Source: Actinomycetota bacterium (GTDB lineage: Bacteria; Actinomycetota; Acidimicrobiia; IMCC26256; VFJJ01). From it: a stretch of 56,154 nt of DNA. The notes beneath the pieces were generated by a model. The model did not search any database, had not been told where the DNA came from, and worked only from the letters and a program-made list of their open reading frames with translations. Below, piece by piece: positions 20,144-29,572 of the stretch. Numbering within the stretch: position 1 is the first letter of the stretch; each line of letters begins with the position of its first letter. The stretch lies in the NCBI GenBank assembly GCA_009886115.1, contig VFJJ01000100.1:1-56154 (forward strand). Direction: 5' to 3'. A program made the position numbers and the translations under genes.

Positions 20144-21187
20144 TCAGCTCTTCCAGGTGATGATCGTCCGCCCGATGGTGGTCCGGGTCTCCATCTCGTC
20201 GAGCGCCGCCGGGAGCTCGCGAGATGGCGCCACCCGGCCCACGACCGGGCCGATCCGCCCCTGGCCCAGCAGGCCGAGGAGCGTGCCGTGGACGGCGTCG
20301 CCGACCGAGCGGGGCCAGACGTTGATGCCCGCTGCGGCGAGGCCGCCGACCGGATCCGACCGGTAGGCGAGCAGCACCCCGCCCGTCGAGAAGTTCCCGA
20401 AGCACAAGGAGCGGGGCAGCACGCCCGGGAGGTCCTCGGCCTCGATCCCGCCGGCGAAGCCGACGATGACGTGGCGGCCGCCGCGGCCCAGGCACCGCAA
20501 GGAATCGACGGTGACCGCCCCGCCGACGCCGTCGAACACGACATCGACACCGCGACCCCCGGTGGCCTCCAGGACGACGTCGACGAAGCTCCGCTCGCGA
20601 TGGTCGACGACCACGTCGGCGCCGAGCTGGCGGCACCGCTCGACCTTGGCGGACCCGCCGGCCACCGCGATCACCCGGGCGCCGGTCGCCGCGCCGAGCT
20701 GGATTGCCGCCGATCCGACGCCTCCGGCCGCCGCGTGCACGAGCACCGTCTCGCCGGGCTGGGTGGCTGCCCGCTCGAACAGGCCGAGATGGGCGAGATG
20801 GAACGGGAACAAGAACGCGCCACCCTCGACGTCGTCGAGCATCTCGGGTGCGGCGAACGTCATGTCGGCCGAAGCCAGCGCGTACTGTGCGTGCGCTCCG
20901 GTGGCGCCCACCGCCGTGGCCACGACCCGGCGGCCGATCCACGCCGCATCGCTCGGACCGGGCCCGGCGGCGGTGACCGTGCCCAGCATCTCCATCCCGA
21001 GCGTGTACGGCAACGGCGGGTCGATCGTGCGGTAGCGCCCGTGGCAGCCGTCGACCTCGTTGTAGTTGAGCGCCGTGGTGGCGACCTCGACGAGCAGCTC
21101 GCCCGGCCCGGGCACGGGCATCGGGCACTCGTCGAGACGCAACGCCTCCGACGGCCGTCCGTGTCGCACGACCCGCCACGCCATCAT
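20144..21187 (-). CDS. Zinc-free MDR family NAD(P)H:quinone oxidoreductase-like enzyme
   Basis: A 347-residue medium-chain reductase. The N-terminal GroES-like domain (PGPGELLVEVATTALNYNEVDG) is followed by the cofactor domain with VLVHAAAGGVGSAAIQLG, typical of quinone oxidoreductases (QOR/zeta-crystallin), and no structural zinc cysteines are visible. The ATG at 21187 overlaps the EamA stop as ATGA, which I take as the start; an in-frame ATG at 21223 would add a short GDTTGDTTGE repeat. It reduces quinones, enones or enoyl thioesters with NADPH. Placed downstream of the EamA exporter and probably the last gene of the CoA-transferase operon. Confidence 0.85.
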   Translation of the reverse strand: MMAWRVVRHGRPSEALRLDECPMPVPGPGELLVEVATTALNYNEVDGCHGRYRTIDPPLPYTLGMEMLGTVTAAGPGPSDAAWIGRRVVATAVGATGAHAQYALASADMTFAAPEMLDDVEGGAFLFPFHLAHLGLFERAATQPGETVLVHAAAGGVGSAAIQLGAATGARVIAVAGGSAKVERCRQLGADVVVDHRERSFVDVVLEATGGRGVDVVFDGVGGAVTVDSLRCLGRGGRHVIVGFAGGIEAEDLPGVLPRSLCFGNFSTGGVLLAYRSDPVGGLAAAGINVWPRSVGDAVHGTLLGLLGQGRIGPVVGRVAPSRELPAALDEMETRTTIGRTIITWKS

Positions 21188-22434
21188 CGTCTCGCCCGTC
21201 GTGTCGCCCGTCGTGTCGCCCATCCCGGGAGTCTCTCGCGATCTCGGCTCGTTCGAGGGGTGCGATGCCCGGGACGGGCCGCGCCGTGTGGCTCCAGGGT
21301 TTCCTCGGCGTAAGGCTCGCGTTCGCCGTCCGGGCTGGCCGGGTCTCGGCCAACGTGCGCATGGGCGTGGCGGTGGTGGACGTCGCTGACGTGCTCGTGG
21401 ATGTGGGTGAGGGGCTCGTGGCGGTGCTGGTGGCTGTGGATGCCGTCGGCGGGGTCGGGACTCCCGGGCGGGTGCGAATGCCGATGATGCTCGTCATGGC
21501 GATGGCGGTGCTCGTGCTCGAGCGGGTCGTGGTGGTGCTGGTGGCCGTGCCGATCGGTGATCATCGCCACGAGCCCGGTTGCCATGAGCGCGCCGGCCAC
21601 CACGTCGAAGGCCGAGAGCCGATCGCCGAGAACGACGAACGCGACGAGGGCACCCGCGAAGGGAGCCACGGCGAACACGGCCGACTCCCGGGCCGCGCCC
21701 AGCAGTCGCAAGGCGTAGGCGTCGGCGACGACGGAGATGCCGTAGCCGACGGCGCCGATCGCGACGAGCGCAGCCAGCCGCGATCCGCTGGGCCACGAGG
21801 CGCCGCGCATCGCCGCGATGACCACGTTGACCGTCGCCGCGATGCCGGTCTTGACGGCCACGATGGCGAACGGGTCTCGGACGGTGAGCGTCTGGGTGAG
21901 GTTGTTGTCGATGGCCCAGGCGGCGCACGCCGCGACGATCAGGAGCGCACCGACGGTGTCGGCGTCGCCGAAGGGGCCACCAGCCGCGGTGAGCACGAAA
22001 GCCCCGCCGAGGACGAGGGCGGCGGCCACTGCGCTCCGGCGTCCGAGGTGCTCGCCGAACGCGACCACGCCCACGACGAGCGTGAACGGTCCTTCGAGGT
22101 TCAACAGGAGCGAGCCGCTCACTCCCGACACCCGCTGTAGCCCGGCCATGAGGAGCACGGGTGCGATGATCCCGCCGAGCACCACGAGCCCGACGAGCGG
22201 GCCGCGATCGCTTCGCTGGAGGCTGGCCTCCCGGGTGCTCCGGCGGCGTGCAGCTGCCACGGGCGCGATGGCGAGAAACGCTCCGGCGTAGAGCAGACCG
22301 GCGACGAGTTGGGCGTCGAGGTTCTCACCCGAGTGCTTGGCCAAGGGGGCGCTGGCCCCGAAGGTGACGGCGGCCGCGGCCCCAGCCAGGTACCCGACCC
22401 GAACCGGGCGTCGAGCCACCGGGTCGCGCTTCAT
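21184..22434 (-). CDS. EamA/DMT-family transporter with histidine-rich tail
   Basis: A 416-residue membrane protein with about ten transmembrane helices arranged as two EamA repeats (residues ~10-145 and ~160-293; GGIIAPVLLMAGLQRVSG and GAARESAVFAVAPFAGALVAFVVLGDRL are typical). After the last helix, residues 296-360 contain 25 histidines, mostly as HxH or HH, followed by a charged tail. EamA proteins export metabolites; the His-rich extension should bind divalent metal ions such as Zn, Ni or Co. I recall similar tails in other actinobacterial DMT proteins. Start ATG 22434 lacks a clear Shine-Dalgarno. It is 76 bp after the thiolase stop. Confidence 0.88.
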   Translation of the reverse strand: MKRDPVARRPVRVGYLAGAAAAVTFGASAPLAKHSGENLDAQLVAGLLYAGAFLAIAPVAAARRRSTREASLQRSDRGPLVGLVVLGGIIAPVLLMAGLQRVSGVSGSLLLNLEGPFTLVVGVVAFGEHLGRRSAVAAALVLGGAFVLTAAGGPFGDADTVGALLIVAACAAWAIDNNLTQTLTVRDPFAIVAVKTGIAATVNVVIAAMRGASWPSGSRLAALVAIGAVGYGISVVADAYALRLLGAARESAVFAVAPFAGALVAFVVLGDRLSAFDVVAGALMATGLVAMITDRHGHQHHHDPLEHEHRHRHDEHHRHSHPPGSPDPADGIHSHQHRHEPLTHIHEHVSDVHHRHAHAHVGRDPASPDGEREPYAEETLEPHGAARPGHRTPRTSRDRERLPGWATRRATRRARR

Positions 22435-22510: not shown

Positions 22511-23665
22511 TCATCCTGCGGGTTGCAGGATGAGGCCGCTGTGGCCGCCCGCCACCATGATCGTCTCCGGACTCGACAGCTGGTTCGCCGCCGTGCCCCT
22601 GATCTGGCGGACGCCCTCGAGGATGTTGTTGAGGCCGTGGATGTAGGCCTCGCCGAGCAGACCCCCGTGGGTGTTGACCGGGAGCGTGCCGGTGAGGTCG
22701 ATGTTGCCCTCGGCGATGAACGCGGCCGCTTCGCCGGGGCCGCAGAACCCCAGCGCCTCGAGCTGCAGGAACACGACCGGGCTGAAGTTCTCGTACAGCA
22801 TCGCGGCATCGATGTCGGAGGGGCCCAGCCCGGTCTGTTCGTAGAGCTGCCGCCCGAGTGCGCGGGCCTCGGGGAACTCGGCCAGGTCGCCGTGGTAGTA
22901 GTTGAACATGATGTTGCCGTCGTTGATGTGGGCGTCGGCGACGGCAGCCACCTTCACGGCGCGGTTGGGGAGGTCGTTGGCCCGGTCGGCCGTGGTGACG
23001 ATCATCGCCACGCCTCCGTCGCTCTCTTGGCAGCAGTCGAGCAGCCGCAGGATCGGCTCGACGATCCACCGTGAGCACTGGTGGTCTTCGAGGGTGATCG
23101 GCCGCTGGTGGAACCAGGCGTTGGGGTTCGTGGCCGCGTGACGCCGGGCGACGACGGTGTAGCGCCCGAAGTCCTCGTTGGTGAGGCCGTAGCGGAACAT
23201 GTAGCGCTGGAACCCGAGCGAGTAGGTCTTGGCCGGGGTGTCGAGGCCGAACGGCAGGTACCAGTTCCAGCCCGGAGGCGTGACGCGAGCGTTGGGCTGT
23301 CCGAACCGCCGACCCGAGCGCTCGTTGAACGCCCGGTACACCAGGACCGCCTTGGCCGCGCCGCCGTGGACGGCCAGGGCGGCGTGCTGGATCGTCGTGT
23401 GCGCGCCCGCCCCGCCGTTGGGGGTGCGCGACCAGTAGCGCAGCTCGGGGATGCCGAGTGAGCGCATGAGCAGCAGCTCGTCGTTCGAGTCCTGGGTGAA
23501 GGTCACCATGCCGTCGATGTCGGCCGGGGTCATGCCCGCGTCGGCGATCGCGCTGCGAGCCGCCTCGGCCGCGAGCTGGAGCTCGCTACGCCCGCTGTGC
23601 TTGGAGAACTCGGTCTGACCGATGCCGGCGATGATCGTGCTGCCCGCGACCGTGACCCGGCTCAC
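22511..23665 (-). CDS. Thiolase-like acetyl-CoA acetyltransferase (lipid-transfer/SCP-x type)
   Basis: A 384-residue thiolase-superfamily protein: TIIAGIGQTEFSKHSGRS at the N-terminus, GGAGAHTTIQHAALAVHGGAAKAVLVYRA in the active-site helix region, and a C-terminal half with VNTHGGLLGEAYIHGLNNILEGVRQIRG containing the catalytic histidine (NTHGG). The nucleophilic cysteine of classical thiolases is not evident at the usual position, as in many SCP-x/DUF35-partnered thiolases of sterol catabolism. GTG at 23665 overlaps the DUF35 gene stop as GTGA, consistent with a DUF35-thiolase complex. It would cleave or form a C-C bond in an acyl-CoA thioester. Confidence 0.85.
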   Translation of the reverse strand: MSRVTVAGSTIIAGIGQTEFSKHSGRSELQLAAEAARSAIADAGMTPADIDGMVTFTQDSNDELLLMRSLGIPELRYWSRTPNGGAGAHTTIQHAALAVHGGAAKAVLVYRAFNERSGRRFGQPNARVTPPGWNWYLPFGLDTPAKTYSLGFQRYMFRYGLTNEDFGRYTVVARRHAATNPNAWFHQRPITLEDHQCSRWIVEPILRLLDCCQESDGGVAMIVTTADRANDLPNRAVKVAAVADAHINDGNIMFNYYHGDLAEFPEARALGRQLYEQTGLGPSDIDAAMLYENFSPVVFLQLEALGFCGPGEAAAFIAEGNIDLTGTLPVNTHGGLLGEAYIHGLNNILEGVRQIRGTAANQLSSPETIMVAGGHSGLILQPAG

Positions 23666-24087
23666 GTCGGGCTCCCCATCGGCACGGGCCCCTCGACGCT
23701 TCGCGGGCGGAACTGGGGCAGGAGCACGCCGTCGATCTCGCGGAAGCACACCTCGACCGGCATCTCGTTGCGCACCTGATCGAACGGGGTGTCGACGAGG
23801 TTGCCCACCAAGCGCAGGCCTTCGGTGAGCTCCACCAGGACCACGACGCGCGCCTGGTCATCGGGTTCGCTGGGATGGCGCGAGATGATCCAGCTGTGCA
23901 CATGGCCCGTTCCCTGAGCTTCCTGCACGCCCCGGTCGGTCGCGTGGCAGCGGCCGCACATCGGCACGGGCGGATGACGCAGCGTCCCGCACGAGCCGCA
24001 CGTCTGCAGGAGGAGGCGATGCTCCTTCACCCCGTCCCAGAAGTACTCGTCATCGGCATCGACGGTGGGCGGTATCACGCGGGCCAT
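23662..24087 (-). CDS. DUF35 Zn-ribbon/OB-fold protein
   Basis: A 141-residue protein with an N-terminal rubredoxin-like zinc ribbon (CGSCGTLRHPPVPMCGRC, four cysteines) and an OB-fold carrying VVVLVELTEGLRLVGNLVD. Such proteins bind acyl-CoA and form a complex with thiolase or hydratase partners. It starts inside the end of the TetR gene (13-bp overlap) and its stop overlaps the thiolase start, so the three are translationally coupled. The gene pair strongly suggests a channelled lyase/thiolase step. Confidence 0.9.
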   Translation of the reverse strand: MARVIPPTVDADDEYFWDGVKEHRLLLQTCGSCGTLRHPPVPMCGRCHATDRGVQEAQGTGHVHSWIISRHPSEPDDQARVVVLVELTEGLRLVGNLVDTPFDQVRNEMPVEVCFREIDGVLLPQFRPRSVEGPVPMGSPT

Positions 24088-24815
24088 GGGCCAGCTCCCG
24101 TGTCGTTCGTGGTCTCGGACACGACGCTTCCCCGCCCCGACGCCGAGGCGCGAACCGCAGCCGAGATGCCGTCGATCAACAGCGTGCGCTGGATGGTGTC
24201 GCTCGCCTTCGTCTTCGAGCTCGTGCTGAAGCTCGACGCGATCAGGTTGCCGACGAGATACCCGCGGAGCGCCGTGAACGCGTAGTTGACGAGCCCGGGC
24301 TCGGCAGCCGACTCGCCCAGCGCCTTGGCGCAGACGGGTCGCCAGGCCCGACTCAAGCGTTGCGCGTGGCGTCGTACCGCTTGGCGCGTCTCGGTCGAGG
24401 TGGCCGGGTTGTTCGCCAGATCGAGGCCGATCTGCATCGTGACGAGGTGCTCGGGTTGGCCGTAGTGCTGCTCGAGGATGGCGAGGAGCTCGTGCAGCCG
24501 GTCCTCGAGCGTCGCTCCGCAGATCTCGGCGCTCACCACGAGGTGTTGCAGTCGGTCCCAGCGGTCGTTCAGCACCTCGAGCAGGAGGGCCTCCCGGGAG
24601 CCGAACTGGTGCTGGAGGACGCCCCAGGTCACGCCGGCGCGCCGGGCGATCTCGTTCGAGCTCGATTGGTAGTACCCGACGTCGAGGATGCTGGCGATCG
24701 CCGCTTCCAACACGCGTTGGCGGGTGAGCTCGCCATCGCGCCGACGCACGCGCCCGTCGCCGGGCGTGGCCCGTCGTGCGCTCGAATCCTTGGTGGTGGC
24801 GACGGCTTCGGTCAT
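24075..24815 (-). CDS. TetR-family transcriptional regulator
   Basis: A 246-residue regulator with an N-terminal helix-turn-helix: RQRVLEAAIASILDVGYYQSSSNEIARRAGVTWGVLQHQFGSREALLLEVL (residues ~31-80) is the standard TetR_N pattern, and the rest is the ligand-binding domain. The ATG overlaps the CoA-transferase stop as ATGA, so it lies within the operon it probably controls. Two palindromes with CATAG-N6-CTATG/CTACG at 27427-27444 and 28636-28653 are the best operator candidates. The inducer is probably a CoA thioester of the catabolised substrate, by analogy with KstR/FadR-like TetRs; this is inference. Confidence 0.9.
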   Translation of the reverse strand: MTEAVATTKDSSARRATPGDGRVRRRDGELTRQRVLEAAIASILDVGYYQSSSNEIARRAGVTWGVLQHQFGSREALLLEVLNDRWDRLQHLVVSAEICGATLEDRLHELLAILEQHYGQPEHLVTMQIGLDLANNPATSTETRQAVRRHAQRLSRAWRPVCAKALGESAAEPGLVNYAFTALRGYLVGNLIASSFSTSSKTKASDTIQRTLLIDGISAAVRASASGRGSVVSETTNDTGAGPWPA

Positions 24816-27343
24816 GGTCGCTCGATCGGGGCGTCGAGGACGGCGTGCTCCGCTGCCATGTCGTCGATCTCGGTATCGGTGTAGCCGTGCTCGCGCAGCA
24901 GCTGCCGTGTGTGCTCGCCACACATGCACGGACCGCCCTGGATCACACTGGGGGTGTCGGAGAAGCCGACGAGCAGCCCCGGATCTTCGAAGCGGCCGAC
25001 ACCGCTCGCCCAGGTCTCGGAGACCAGGCGCTCGGCTCGGGCGTGGGGATCGTCGAAGATCGTTCGGCAGAACGACTCGTCGACCACCTCCGCCGGGACC
25101 CCGAGGGCGTCGAGCGCGCTCTGCCAGGCCGCCGCCGGTCGTGACCGGAAGCCGGCCTCGAGGTCGGCCTCGAGGTTGGCCTCGAGCGCGGCCTCGAGCG
25201 CGGCGCCGGCATCGCCCCGGGTGTTGGGGGGCTCGACAGCGCTCACCGCGTGGCCCGTCACCGCATGGAGGAGGCGAAGTCGGTGCTCGGGTGTGAGTGC
25301 GGCGACGAACAGCCAGGCATCGTCTTCGCACTGGTAGAGCCGGTAGTACGGCGACAGCCCGTGCTGGTCGCCGTCGACGTGGCCCCAATCGGCGGACGTG
25401 CCATCGGAGGCGATCCAGGCGTACGAGGTGTGGAGCAGCCCGGCGTTGACGATCGAGGTGCTGACCGCCTGCCCCTCGCCGGTGCGCTCCCGGTGATACA
25501 GCGCCGCGGTGATGGCAGTGGCGGCGAGGAGCGCGTTCCCCGTGTCGCCCATGTTCGAACGACTCCACAGGGGAGGGTTTCCGGCGTCGCACGCGCCGTC
25601 CTCCCACTCGGTTCCGGTGAGCGCGGCCGCCGTCTGGTCGGTACCCGGCAGGTCGGAGCGGGGGCCCTTCTCGTACCCGCGGGTGTTGCAGTAGACCAGG
25701 CGCGGGAAGCGCGCGTGCAACGTGTCGAAGTCGAGCCTGAGCCGAGCTGCGGCGCCGGGACGCCAGTTCACCGTGAACACGTCGGCCTGCTCGATGAGCC
25801 GATCGAGCGCGGCACGACCCAAGGGGTGCTTGAGGTTCACGGCGATGCTCCGCTTGCCCCGATTGGTGCCGAGACCCATGTGGGTCCCCGACCAGTACCC
25901 GTCGTGCATGGCCATGACCTTGATGACGTCGGCGCCGAGATCGGCGAGAACCCGACCCGCGAACGGTCCTGCGACGCCGAGCCCGAGGTCGAGCACCCGG
26001 ACCCCGGCGAGCGGATGGGCGAGGGAGACACCTGGGCGCGGGCCCGTGCCGCCCTCGCTGCCCTCGCCGGCCTCGCCCGTCGTCGTCGTCGGCCGTGTCG
26101 GTGCTGCCGGCGAGGCGATGATCGCCGCAGCCTCGGCGAGGACCTCGGCGGTGTGGGCCCCTGACCGGGGCGACGGAGCGGTGACGCCTCCCGGCGTGGA
26201 CGAGAACTCCAGCACCGACCCGACGTGGCGGATGCGACCGACCTCCGGATCGTCGACCTCGACCACGCAGCCGTCAGCCAGGAACGACTCGTCGGCCAGA
26301 GCCTCGGCCGGTGAGCGCACCAACGCGACGCCGATCCCGGCCAGGGCACCGGCTTCCACCCAATCGCTCGACGGGAACTTCTTGAACGCCTCGGCCAGCA
26401 GCGGGTGCAAGAAGATTCCGGTGAGGAACCCGTCGGCCTCCATCGAGATCCGATCGGGATCGTCGCGGTACGCGGTGTCGAGCACCACGTCCTGAGGACG
26501 CTCGGCCTCGGCCGCTCCGAGCACCCACTTCGGGCGGACCGTCCAGTGATGGACCCAACGGCCGTCGGCGCACTCGTAGATCCCCTCGATCGAGCGTGAG
26601 TCGATCGGCCACATCCAGTAGAGCGTGGCGTCGGGGTTCTCGACCCTCTGCCAGTTGAGCGAGATGGCCGCGAGGGCACCCTGAAGCAGCGAGGTCTCGA
26701 CGTGCTGGCCTCGACCGGTGACCTCGCGGGCGCAAAGTGCGGCCGCGATGCCGAGCGACGCCACGTAGTTGGCCCCGATGCTCGGCCAGGGCGTTCGTGG
26801 GAACACGGGGCCGGGGCGATCGGCGCCGCGGACGAGCCCGTCGGGTGCGTCGTACTCTGGGTGGGGGCCATCTCGACCGACGATGTACTCGAACGCCGTG
26901 CCCCGCCGGCCCTTCTGGTCGTACAGCAGCCCGGTTCGGGCGGCAACGAGTGCGTCGTACCCGGGTCGGTCGGCGTGGTCGGGGTGGCGCCCGTACCCGG
27001 AGATCGAGCAGGTGATGAGCCGTGGGTTGATGGCGCACAGCGTGGCGTGATCGATGCCGAGCTCGTCGGTGGTGCCGGGAGAGAACGTCTCGACCACGAT
27101 GTCGGCGCGAGACGCCAGGGCGAGGAACGCCGTGTGGCCCTGGGGTGAGCGGAGATCGATGGTGGCGCTGCGCTTGCCCCGGTGCCAGACGCGGTAGCCG
27201 GTCTGGTCGGCGAACGGGTCACCCTCGGGACGTTCGATCCTCGTCACCCGGGCGCCGTTGTCGACGAGCATCATCGTGGTCATGGGTCCGGCAATCCCCC
27301 ACGAGAGGTCGAGCACCTGCAACCCGTCGAAGACTCCGGCCAT
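24812..27343 (-). CDS. Two-domain class III (CaiB/BaiF/Frc) CoA-transferase
   Basis: An 843-residue tandem CoA-transferase. Domain 1 (about 1-400) and domain 2 (about 440-843) both begin with the family signature (VLDLSWGIAGP and VLDLGLGVAGPFAGRVLADLGADVIKV) and are joined by a Thr/Gly/Glu-rich linker. The catalytic aspartate expected in the GD motif is present in domain 2 (NMGD, D600) but the matching position of domain 1 is SIGA (A191), so only the second half looks competent. It would activate a carboxylic acid by CoA transfer. There is a short Leu-Glu-Ala tandem repeat (EAALEANLEADLEAG) late in domain 2. ATG at 27343 is first in the operon. Confidence 0.9.
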   Translation of the reverse strand: MAGVFDGLQVLDLSWGIAGPMTTMMLVDNGARVTRIERPEGDPFADQTGYRVWHRGKRSATIDLRSPQGHTAFLALASRADIVVETFSPGTTDELGIDHATLCAINPRLITCSISGYGRHPDHADRPGYDALVAARTGLLYDQKGRRGTAFEYIVGRDGPHPEYDAPDGLVRGADRPGPVFPRTPWPSIGANYVASLGIAAALCAREVTGRGQHVETSLLQGALAAISLNWQRVENPDATLYWMWPIDSRSIEGIYECADGRWVHHWTVRPKWVLGAAEAERPQDVVLDTAYRDDPDRISMEADGFLTGIFLHPLLAEAFKKFPSSDWVEAGALAGIGVALVRSPAEALADESFLADGCVVEVDDPEVGRIRHVGSVLEFSSTPGGVTAPSPRSGAHTAEVLAEAAAIIASPAAPTRPTTTTGEAGEGSEGGTGPRPGVSLAHPLAGVRVLDLGLGVAGPFAGRVLADLGADVIKVMAMHDGYWSGTHMGLGTNRGKRSIAVNLKHPLGRAALDRLIEQADVFTVNWRPGAAARLRLDFDTLHARFPRLVYCNTRGYEKGPRSDLPGTDQTAAALTGTEWEDGACDAGNPPLWSRSNMGDTGNALLAATAITAALYHRERTGEGQAVSTSIVNAGLLHTSYAWIASDGTSADWGHVDGDQHGLSPYYRLYQCEDDAWLFVAALTPEHRLRLLHAVTGHAVSAVEPPNTRGDAGAALEAALEANLEADLEAGFRSRPAAAWQSALDALGVPAEVVDESFCRTIFDDPHARAERLVSETWASGVGRFEDPGLLVGFSDTPSVIQGGPCMCGEHTRQLLREHGYTDTEIDDMAAEHAVLDAPIERP

Positions 27344-27426: not shown

Positions 27427-27444
27427 TCATAGCAGGTACTATGA
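27427..27444. promoter_or_regulatory. Palindromic operator candidate overlapping a -10 box
   Basis: TCATAG-CAGGTA-CTATGA is a perfect 6-bp inverted repeat with a 6-bp spacer, 84 bp upstream of the CoA-transferase start. Read on minus it contains TATGAT, a consensus -10 hexamer, so a repressor bound here would block transcription. The core CATAG-N6-CTATG recurs upstream of the amidohydrolase. Confidence 0.6.
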
Positions 27445-27472
27445 AAGTCGTAGCTGGCCGCATGGGCCGTGG

Positions 27473-28597
27473 TCACAGCCTCCACACGCGTGCGGCGTTG
27501 CCACTCACCACGAGCGCCCGTTCCACGGGATCGGCGCCGACGAACATCTCGTCGACGACCTTCTGCGAGTTGGGCCAGCTCGACACCGGGTGGGGGTAGT
27601 CGGACGACCACATGATGTTCTCGACGCCCAGGCGGGAGTGCGCGTGGTACAGGGCGTCGGGCTCGTCGACGAAGGTGAGGAAGACGTTCTTGCGGAAGTA
27701 GTGGCTCGGTAGCTTGGTGATGGCCGGGAAGTCATAGCCCTGTCGCAGCACGAAGTCGTCGGCGATGTAGAGCCACCACGAGACCCAGCCGAGCCCCGGC
27801 TCCACGAAGACCACGCGCAGATCGGGGAAGCGCTCGAAGACGCCGCCCATGATCCACATTCCGAGCGGTTCGGCGGCCGACATCGCCACGAGGGGCACGA
27901 AGATGCCCTTCTGGGGTGTGGGATCGCGGCGGGCGAGATCGTCCAACGCCGTGTTCATGCCGATGTGGCAGCACACCGGCAGGTCGACGTCCTGGATGGC
28001 CGCCCAGAGCGGGTCGTATCGGGTGTCCCAGTAGTCGGGGAGGCCGAGCTCGGCCGGGAAGACCGGGAGCTGCAACGACTTGCAGCCTGTGGAAGCCGCC
28101 CATCGCACCTCGGCCACGGCGGCGTCGATGTCGTGGATGGGGATCTGGTACGAGACCACGAGGCGACTCGGAGCGGCCGACGCGAAATCGGCCAGGGAGC
28201 TGTTGAACGCCCGCGTTGCCTCCTTCCAGCCGTTCTTCACCAGATAGAGATACCGGAAGGCGGAGACCTCGCAGTACGTGGCCGAGGCTTCGACGCCGTC
28301 GGCGTCCATGTCGGCCAAGCGTTCCTTGGCGTCGGTATGGCCCGCGCGGCCATTGGCTGCGTGGCGGCGACCGGTACCCATCCCCACCGGCCTTTCGGAC
28401 GGCCCCAGGTTCTGCTGCGCTCGCCAGAGCTGGTTGGCCTCGATCGACAGCACGTTGCCCGCGGAGCTGACGAAGGCGGCGATGGCGTCGTCGTAGTCGC
28501 CGTGGAACTTCGTGGCGAGATGCGCCTTCACCGCCGCGTGGCTCAGGTCGACGTGGTCGTCGGCCGAGATCAGCCGTTCCTTGGTCGAAGCACCCAT
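27473..28597 (-). CDS. Amidohydrolase-2 family (ACMSD-like) metal-dependent hydrolase
   Basis: A 374-residue TIM-barrel amidohydrolase. SADDHVD at the start carries the first metal ligands; CCHIGMN holds the conserved histidine, and MWSSDYPHPVSSWPNS near the C-terminus is the signature aspartate/histidine of amidohydrolase-2 proteins (decarboxylases or C-C hydrolases such as ACMSD and gamma-resorcylate decarboxylase). ATG at 28597 was chosen as it precedes the metal motif by a short lead and follows GAGGGGCGGCG. It lies 130 bp upstream of the CoA-transferase and has its own operator-like palindrome. Probably a ring-cleavage or decarboxylation step in the same pathway; substrate unknown. Confidence 0.85.
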   Translation of the reverse strand: MGASTKERLISADDHVDLSHAAVKAHLATKFHGDYDDAIAAFVSSAGNVLSIEANQLWRAQQNLGPSERPVGMGTGRRHAANGRAGHTDAKERLADMDADGVEASATYCEVSAFRYLYLVKNGWKEATRAFNSSLADFASAAPSRLVVSYQIPIHDIDAAVAEVRWAASTGCKSLQLPVFPAELGLPDYWDTRYDPLWAAIQDVDLPVCCHIGMNTALDDLARRDPTPQKGIFVPLVAMSAAEPLGMWIMGGVFERFPDLRVVFVEPGLGWVSWWLYIADDFVLRQGYDFPAITKLPSHYFRKNVFLTFVDEPDALYHAHSRLGVENIMWSSDYPHPVSSWPNSQKVVDEMFVGADPVERALVVSGNAARVWRL

Positions 28598-28635
28598 GGC
28601 TCGCCGCCCCTCTGCTGTGGATCTGGATCGCGTGT

Positions 28636-28653
28636 GCGTAGTGATCACTATGC
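28636..28653. promoter_or_regulatory. Second palindromic operator candidate
   Basis: On minus: GCATAGTGATCACTACGC, an 18-bp palindrome with one mismatched pair and a perfect TAGTGATCACTA core, 39 bp upstream of the amidohydrolase start. Its half-sites CATAG-N6-CTACG match the site upstream of the CoA-transferase. It partly overlaps the 5' end of the integrase remnant. Confidence 0.55.
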
Positions 28654-28991: not shown

Positions 28992-28996
28992 TGAGG

Positions 28997-29069
28997 TGGC
29001 CAGGACCGGCGTCGATCCGGTGACCTCGCGCTTTTCAGGCGCGCGCTCTACCAACTGAGCTACCCGGCC
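28997..29069 (-). tRNA. tRNA-Phe (GAA)
   Basis: A 73-nt cloverleaf: acceptor GGCCGGG pairing with CCTGGCC (one G-T), D-arm GCTC/GAGC, anticodon arm CGCGC-CTGAAAA-GCGCG with anticodon GAA, T-stem ACCGG/CCGGT. The T-loop reads ATCGACG, so the normally invariant T54 is A. CCA is not encoded. Order Glu-Asp-Phe on one strand matches the common actinobacterial cluster. Confidence 0.92.
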
Positions 29070-29073
29070 GGGC

Positions 29074-29107
29074 GACCGTCGCCTCCCCCGAGGGGGAGGC
29101 GACGGTC
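29074..29107. other. Perfect 16-bp inverted repeat between tRNA-Asp and tRNA-Phe
   Basis: Arms GACCGTCGCCTCCCCC and its exact complement are separated by only 2 bp and fill nearly the whole spacer. In a joint tRNA precursor this would be a very stable hairpin between the two tRNAs. There is no T tract, so processing or tRNA separation is more likely than termination. Confidence 0.8.
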
Positions 29108-29109
29108 AG

Positions 29110-29184
29110 CGGTCCTGACGGGATTTGAACCCGCGGCCTCCGCCTTGACAGGGCGGCGTGCACTCCAAACTGCACCACAGGACC
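29110..29184 (-). tRNA. tRNA-Asp (GTC)
   Basis: A 75-nt cloverleaf with acceptor GGTCCTG/CAGGACC, D-stem GTGC/GCAC, anticodon arm CCGCC-CTGTCAA-GGCGG (anticodon GTC), T-arm GCGGG-TTCAAAT-CCCGT and discriminator G. CCA is not encoded. Confidence 0.95.
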
Positions 29185-29262
29185 TTGTGGGGGTGATGCC
29201 GGTGCTGCGGATGCTCTCGCTGCGGTATGCGGTGCTCGATGTTGCGGACTGCTGGGACCTCG

Positions 29263-29335
29263 CACCCCCAAGGGGATTCGAACCCCCGTCGCCGCCTTGA
29301 AAGGGCGGTGTCCTAGGCCGCTGGACGATGGGGGC
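29263..29335 (-). tRNA. tRNA-Glu (TTC)
   Basis: A 73-nt cloverleaf with acceptor GCCCCCA/TGGGGGT (first pair G-T), D-stem GTCC/GGAC, anticodon arm CCGCC-CTTTCAA-GGCGG (anticodon TTC), T-arm GGGGG-TTCGAAT-CCCCT. First of the three minus-strand tRNAs. Confidence 0.95.
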
Positions 29336-29479
29336 CTGGTGTGCCTGCAGGGCAGGTGGGATCGTAGCAGGCGCGGGTGCTCGGATCTCCAGCCGATTCC
29401 TGGGTCGGGCCCGGCCACGAATCGGCCGTGGCGATCGGCCCGACGCCCACCGGCACGGTGGCTGTACCCTCGGGCCTCC

Positions 29480-29552
29480 GGGCCGCTAGCTCACTTGGTA
29501 GAGCAACGGACTTTTAATCCGCAGGTACTGGGTTCGATCCCCAGGCGGCCCA
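29480..29552 (+). tRNA. tRNA-Lys (TTT)
   Basis: A 73-nt cloverleaf with acceptor GGGCCGC/GCGGCCC, D-stem GCTC/GAGC, anticodon arm ACGGA-CTTTTAA-TCCGC (anticodon TTT, with an A-C pair at the stem base), T-arm CTGGG-TTCGATC-CCCAG. Divergent from the Glu-Asp-Phe group with 144 bp between. Confidence 0.95.
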
Positions 29553-29572
29553 CACAAAATAGCTGGTCAAGT

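Follow-up and report, generated by a model that had tools for sequence, protein, structure and literature searches.

Two similar palindromes lie upstream of two units in the window, the whole stretch of 56,154 nucleotides that was analyzed here. The locus thus raises the question of whether they are operators of the TetR-family regulator encoded in the first unit, and whether the two units form one regulon, as the earlier note had proposed. Both palindromes are present, with common half-sites and a 6-bp spacing as described there. The core of site 1 (CATAGCAGGTACTATG, 27428-27443) is upstream of the operon of a CoA-transferase, the TetR, a DUF35 protein, and an Ltp2-type aldolase, and the predicted operator 1 is TCATAGCAGGTACTATGA (TCATAG-CAGGTA-CTATGA, 27427-27444). 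It is inside the 129 bp that separate the amidohydrolase gene from the CoA-transferase gene, and 92.5 bp lie between its center and the downstream ATG of the CoA-transferase (27343). The core of site 2 (CATAGTGATCACTACG, minus strand, 28637-28652) is upstream of the amidohydrolase gene, with its center 47.5 bp from the ATG at 28597. The predicted operator 2 (28636-28653) reads GCATAGTGATCACTACGC on the minus strand and GCGTAGTGATCACTATGC on the plus strand (GCGTAG-TGATCA-CTATGC). Site 2, in which one base departs from the consensus, is weaker than site 1.

Genes were called with a simple script, and those of both units are on the minus strand. The first gene of the operon (24812-27343) encodes a fused, double-length family III CoA-transferase in which PF02515 matches two stretches. 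The TetR gene (24815-24075; PF00440, E = 9.1e-10) starts 4 bp within the end of the CoA-transferase gene and is the second gene of the first unit. Its helix-turn-helix domain is N-terminal (TetR_N, PF00440, residues 36-81, 38.6 bits vs a cut-off of 24), and the recognition helix region is VTWGVLQHQF (residues 62-71, codons at 24603-24632). A single-sequence structure model of low confidence (pLDDT 55.6) has nine helices and no strands. The TetR gene is followed by genes for a DUF35/ChsH2-type OB-fold partner (23662-24087, PF01796 and PF12172) and an Ltp2-type aldolase of the thiolase fold (22511-23668, alternative start at 23665). The best solved structure for the aldolase is the lipid-transfer protein 6ok1 (E = 1.3e-130), whose YDHF aligns with YENF, and the tyrosine is kept. 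After a 76-bp gap there is an EamA-type transporter gene (21184-22434, PF00892) without an operator of its own, and then a zinc-type dehydrogenase gene (20144-21223, PF00107/PF08240); both are possibly in the transcript of the operon. The second predicted unit is the amidohydrolase gene (27473-28597, Amidohydro_2, PF04909), and the nearest solved structures of its product are DitZ (8uyr, E = 1e-35) and PtmU3 (6omp, E = 3e-29). Just past this unit, at 28995-29553, is a group of four tRNA genes, three on the minus strand (Phe, Asp, and Glu) and one on the plus strand (Lys).

The half-sites CATAGTA and TACTATG resemble -10 hexamers, and the two palindromes might be a chance likeness of two AT-rich promoter elements. 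The earlier note had itself read TATGAT, overlapping site 1, as a consensus -10. The hexamer is there (27431-27426, minus strand), but its -10 role is unproven since a sigma-70 scan yielded no -35/-10 pair in the region; the scan found no promoter near either site. The pattern C[AG]TAGYRNNYRCTA[CT]G, which fits both sites, had no third occurrence in the 56-kb window. When both intergenic regions were dinucleotide-shuffled 20,000 times, the pattern appeared once in the first region, never in the second, and never in both together, which argues against chance.

In the 5.4-Mb home genome, exact CATAGN6CTAYG occurs in three places, namely the two sites and one place inside ilvD. With up to one mismatch, CATAGYRNNYRCTATG matches six places including both sites, and a reversed control pattern matches four. 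The two sites are the sole intergenic matches to CATAGYRNNYRCTATG found. The remaining four are all coding, in ilvD, argS, a nitrilase gene, and an unrelated amidohydrolase gene (named from reading the translations). Because these extra sites are no more numerous than the matches of the reversed control, a wider regulon in this genome was rejected. The earlier note had suggested a genome-wide motif scan for further members and held that occurrence at chance frequency would speak against the regulon. The scan brought no further members: beyond the two promoters, the motif occurs about as often as chance would give. Such a count is expected for a local regulon of two sites, and it would mislead if taken as a refutation. 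The motif is thus not enriched genome-wide, and what stands out is its two intergenic copies 1.2 kb apart.

Orthologues of this TetR were found in similar clusters of nine further genomes, eight of the home order and one of the home class. All ten TetR-bearing genomes, the home genome included, have the palindrome with 0-2 mismatches before a CoA-transferase, an amidohydrolase, a P450, or a divergent gene pair, and gene order varies among the clusters. The amidohydrolase of G365, G043, and G056 retains the palindrome on a separate contig; from their upstream sequences, these three unlinked amidohydrolases are predicted trans targets. G013 has an extra site before a branched-chain amino-acid type ABC transporter operon. 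The sole site of G035 has two mismatches, and in G049 the promoter falls past the contig end. At E ≤ 10, a weight matrix run against 14 whole genomes gave regulon sites only, plus the coding site in the nitrilase gene of the home genome. Three sites went unreported at this threshold, namely site 2 and those of G035 and G045 (see below). With a matrix made from other genomes only, the nitrilase site scored 24.1 vs 24.6 for site 1, and it is presumably a chance match. Moreover, the apparent start codon ATG of both target genes of G365 lies within the second half-site, and so this half-site is unlikely to be a -10 element. Together with the trans targets and the conservation of the palindrome across families and in another phylum (see below), these results make a chance likeness of promoter elements extremely unlikely, even though the pattern is otherwise at chance level in the home genome.

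We compared these loci with ones lacking this TetR. Related enzyme operons that lack it occur in G003 and G001, where the aldolase is 71-74% and the DUF35 protein 56-58% identical to those of the window. The palindrome is absent from both operons, and the matrix search of the whole genomes at E ≤ 10 found no match in either. It is also absent before relatives of the amidohydrolase or CoA-transferase in G030, G055, G076, G167, and G220, and from other loci of G001, G035, and G045. Operons and genes without this TetR scored at most 6.4, with one exception. This is a perfect site on G045:C48, before an amidohydrolase gene truncated by the contig end; G045, an assembly of ~390 contigs, yielded no orthologue of this TetR. 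Thus, the site is present in ten of ten genomes with the TetR and in one of eight without (one-sided Fisher p = 2.5e-4, which ignores relatedness and overstates independence because the genomes are related). In G003, a different TetR with a TetR_C_33 domain (L168:8132-8752) is encoded between the amidohydrolase and the CoA-transferase, without CATAG sites, an apparent regulator swap.

Such co-occurrence of site and regulator is what one would expect to see if the TetR bound these sites and they made up one regulon. The palindromes might instead be operators of one regulon bound by a regulator encoded elsewhere, with the embedded TetR controlling another target. The contig of the G045 site does carry another TetR, and in G013 the ABC transporter operon with its one site is followed by a second TetR (~26% identical). 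However, the sites follow this TetR in ten genomes and are missing from related operons without it, and the site immediately precedes the genes of distant homologues whose recognition helix is near-identical (see below). A regulator encoded elsewhere is therefore unlikely. Because the site recurs before the same genes when the TetR is present and is absent without it, with one exception, the palindromes are very probably switches of the embedded TetR.

A logo from 21 sites gave the half-site aCATAGTA, a 2-bp spacer, and the operator aCATAGTAnnTACTATGt. With the inner positions left unconstrained, position 6 was a pyrimidine in 34 of 34 half-sites and position 7 a purine in 32 of 34. Since these positions are conserved, the operator is better described as (a)CATAGTA-NN-TACTATG(t) than as CATAG-N6-CTATG. 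For the home genome, the weight matrix was built from other genomes only; it ranked site 1 first both in the window and in a 150-kb set containing stretches picked for near-misses, and site 2 second in the former and fifth in the latter. With held-out matrices, the sites of every other genome outranked all non-site positions of its loci. Three half-sites occur in tandem (CATAGTTCCTACTATGCACTATG) before the amidohydrolase of G046 (L046:11485-11507) and G043 (L123:7016-7038), and these are possibly two overlapping operators. A text search for the half-sites TACTATG and CATAGTA found no matching regulator in the literature covered, most subscription papers lying outside this coverage. Literature searches on CaiB/amidohydrolase TetR operators and on DitZ returned nothing relevant.

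Inverted repeats of 5-7 bp that are 10-190 bp before start codons could also form RNA hairpins in transcript leaders and act as an attenuator or a processing site. No terminator-like hairpin was found, and an attenuator or terminator was rejected. Furthermore, the letters are kept and not the pairing alone: positions 3 and 4 are invariant in all 42 half-sites. In G048 (L050) and G039 (L048), divergent genes share one site, which suits a DNA site and not an RNA structure. We consider RNA hairpins very unlikely.

As an out-of-sample set, a protein-only search of a second collection gave two distant homologues of the TetR (~32% identity), one of them in a Deltaproteobacterium. Their recognition helix IAKRAGVTWGVLQHQF is nearly identical to VTWGVLQHQFG of the window, and in aligned relatives with the operator the helix is kept as (T/S)WGx(L/I)Q(Y/H)(H/Q)F. 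Both homologues have the palindrome ~25-40 bp upstream of their own genes, and in each genome it is the best match. In the 7.8 Mb of the Deltaproteobacterium, CATAGCGACTACTATG alone is an exact match, and one other place has one mismatch. In the 6.3-Mb genome of the second homologue, CATAGCGACTACGATG is the only place with up to one mismatch. The palindrome thus tracks the TetR across species, across families, and into another phylum, and also at trans targets, supporting the proposal that both palindromes are operators of the embedded TetR within one regulon.

Less similar TetR relatives have different palindromes at a comparable distance, for example ACATATTGC-NN-GCAATGT. Related but different palindromes such as ACATATTGCATGCAATGT occur in genomes related to the Deltaproteobacterium (L218:1428, L219:1400, L210:1428, L207:572), and in three of these four the site is ~70-100 bp upstream of the TetR match. 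Palindromes with partial similarity (AAATAGATATGACTATGT, ACATAGTCGGCTCAATGT) also lie close to the TetR gene start in four more distant homologues from another family within the same phylum (L072:1456, L073:1420, L075:1436, L076:2045). The TetRs of a phylum-wide search that are 24-26% identical, with partial upstream resemblances only, were left out of the support. Helix and operator may vary together. Tentatively, these TetRs could be an undescribed subfamily with the helix (T/S)WGx(L/I)Q(H/Y) that has kept CATAGTA-NN-TACTATG from the phylum of the window to the Deltaproteobacteria, with graded variants such as ACATATTGC-NN-GCAATGT in sister subfamilies amounting to a helix/operator code. The branch of the window would then govern an Ltp2-type aldolase pathway that is itself undescribed and acts on a terpenoid- or steroid-like acid. 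We regard this wider scheme as possible, though somewhat doubtful.

For the locus itself, comparison of these sequences makes it highly likely that both palindromes are operators of the TetR at 24075-24815, in a local, self-repressing regulon that covers both units and is released by a ligand. A TetR dimer would bind (a)CATAGTA-NN-TACTATG(t), with one recognition helix for each half-site. The predicted operators are at or adjoining the promoters of the CoA-transferase/TetR/DUF35/aldolase operon and the amidohydrolase gene, so that the bound TetR would keep both units, and with them its own gene, from being transcribed. An intermediate of the pathway would release it, an acyl-CoA thioester being the likeliest candidate. 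The predicted regulon is small, with two sites here and one to three in the predicted regulons of relatives.

The nearest described arrangement is the KstR2 regulon of mycobacteria and rhodococci, in which a self-controlling TetR repressor acts on a few local palindromes (PMC3068626). By analogy with KstR2, the TetR of the window probably represses its targets and is probably released by an acyl-CoA. In both systems, a TetR-type regulator is encoded among its own targets (predicted ones here) in a catabolic gene set, the palindrome is short with a 2-bp center, the few sites are in the neighborhood only, and the operator was found by footprinting the promoter of the regulator itself. The operators differ, AnCAAGnnCTTGnT for KstR2 vs aCATAGTAnnTACTATGt in our 21-site logo (PMC3068626). 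The genes also differ, being here a fused CoA-transferase, a DUF35 protein, an Ltp2-type aldolase, and an amidohydrolase, with P450s in relatives, and some targets are unlinked in relatives. This comparison covers the regulon and the operator.

DitZ and PtmU3 owe their names to diterpenoid pathways, and PtmU3 functions as a thioesterase. Both are the nearest solved relatives of the amidohydrolase of the window, although the sequence similarity is only distant. Ltp2-ChsH2 (DUF35) and Sal-Shy are steroid side-chain aldolase complexes (PMC12329534). As in these complexes, the gene of the Ltp2-close aldolase adjoins that of its DUF35 partner. By contrast with them, the DUF35 protein of the window showed no MaoC hydratase domain, and the predicted aldolase is accompanied by a fused CoA-transferase and an amidohydrolase. 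Since an Ltp2-like aldolase gene is beside a DUF35 gene and a DitZ/PtmU3-like amidohydrolase gene, the gene content suggests the breakdown of a steroid- or terpenoid-like acid via CoA thioesters.

An impression from a lone sequence has thus become, in little-studied bacteria, a regulon that can be tested and whose operator, regulator, and targets are defined. The regulon joins an Ltp2-type aldolase, a DUF35 protein, a fused CoA-transferase, a DitZ/PtmU3-like amidohydrolase, and P450s in a presumed single pathway, to which one relative adds an ABC importer; the search for the substrate is therefore narrowed. Once the ligand is known, a sensor could be built from the TetR and its 16-bp operator.
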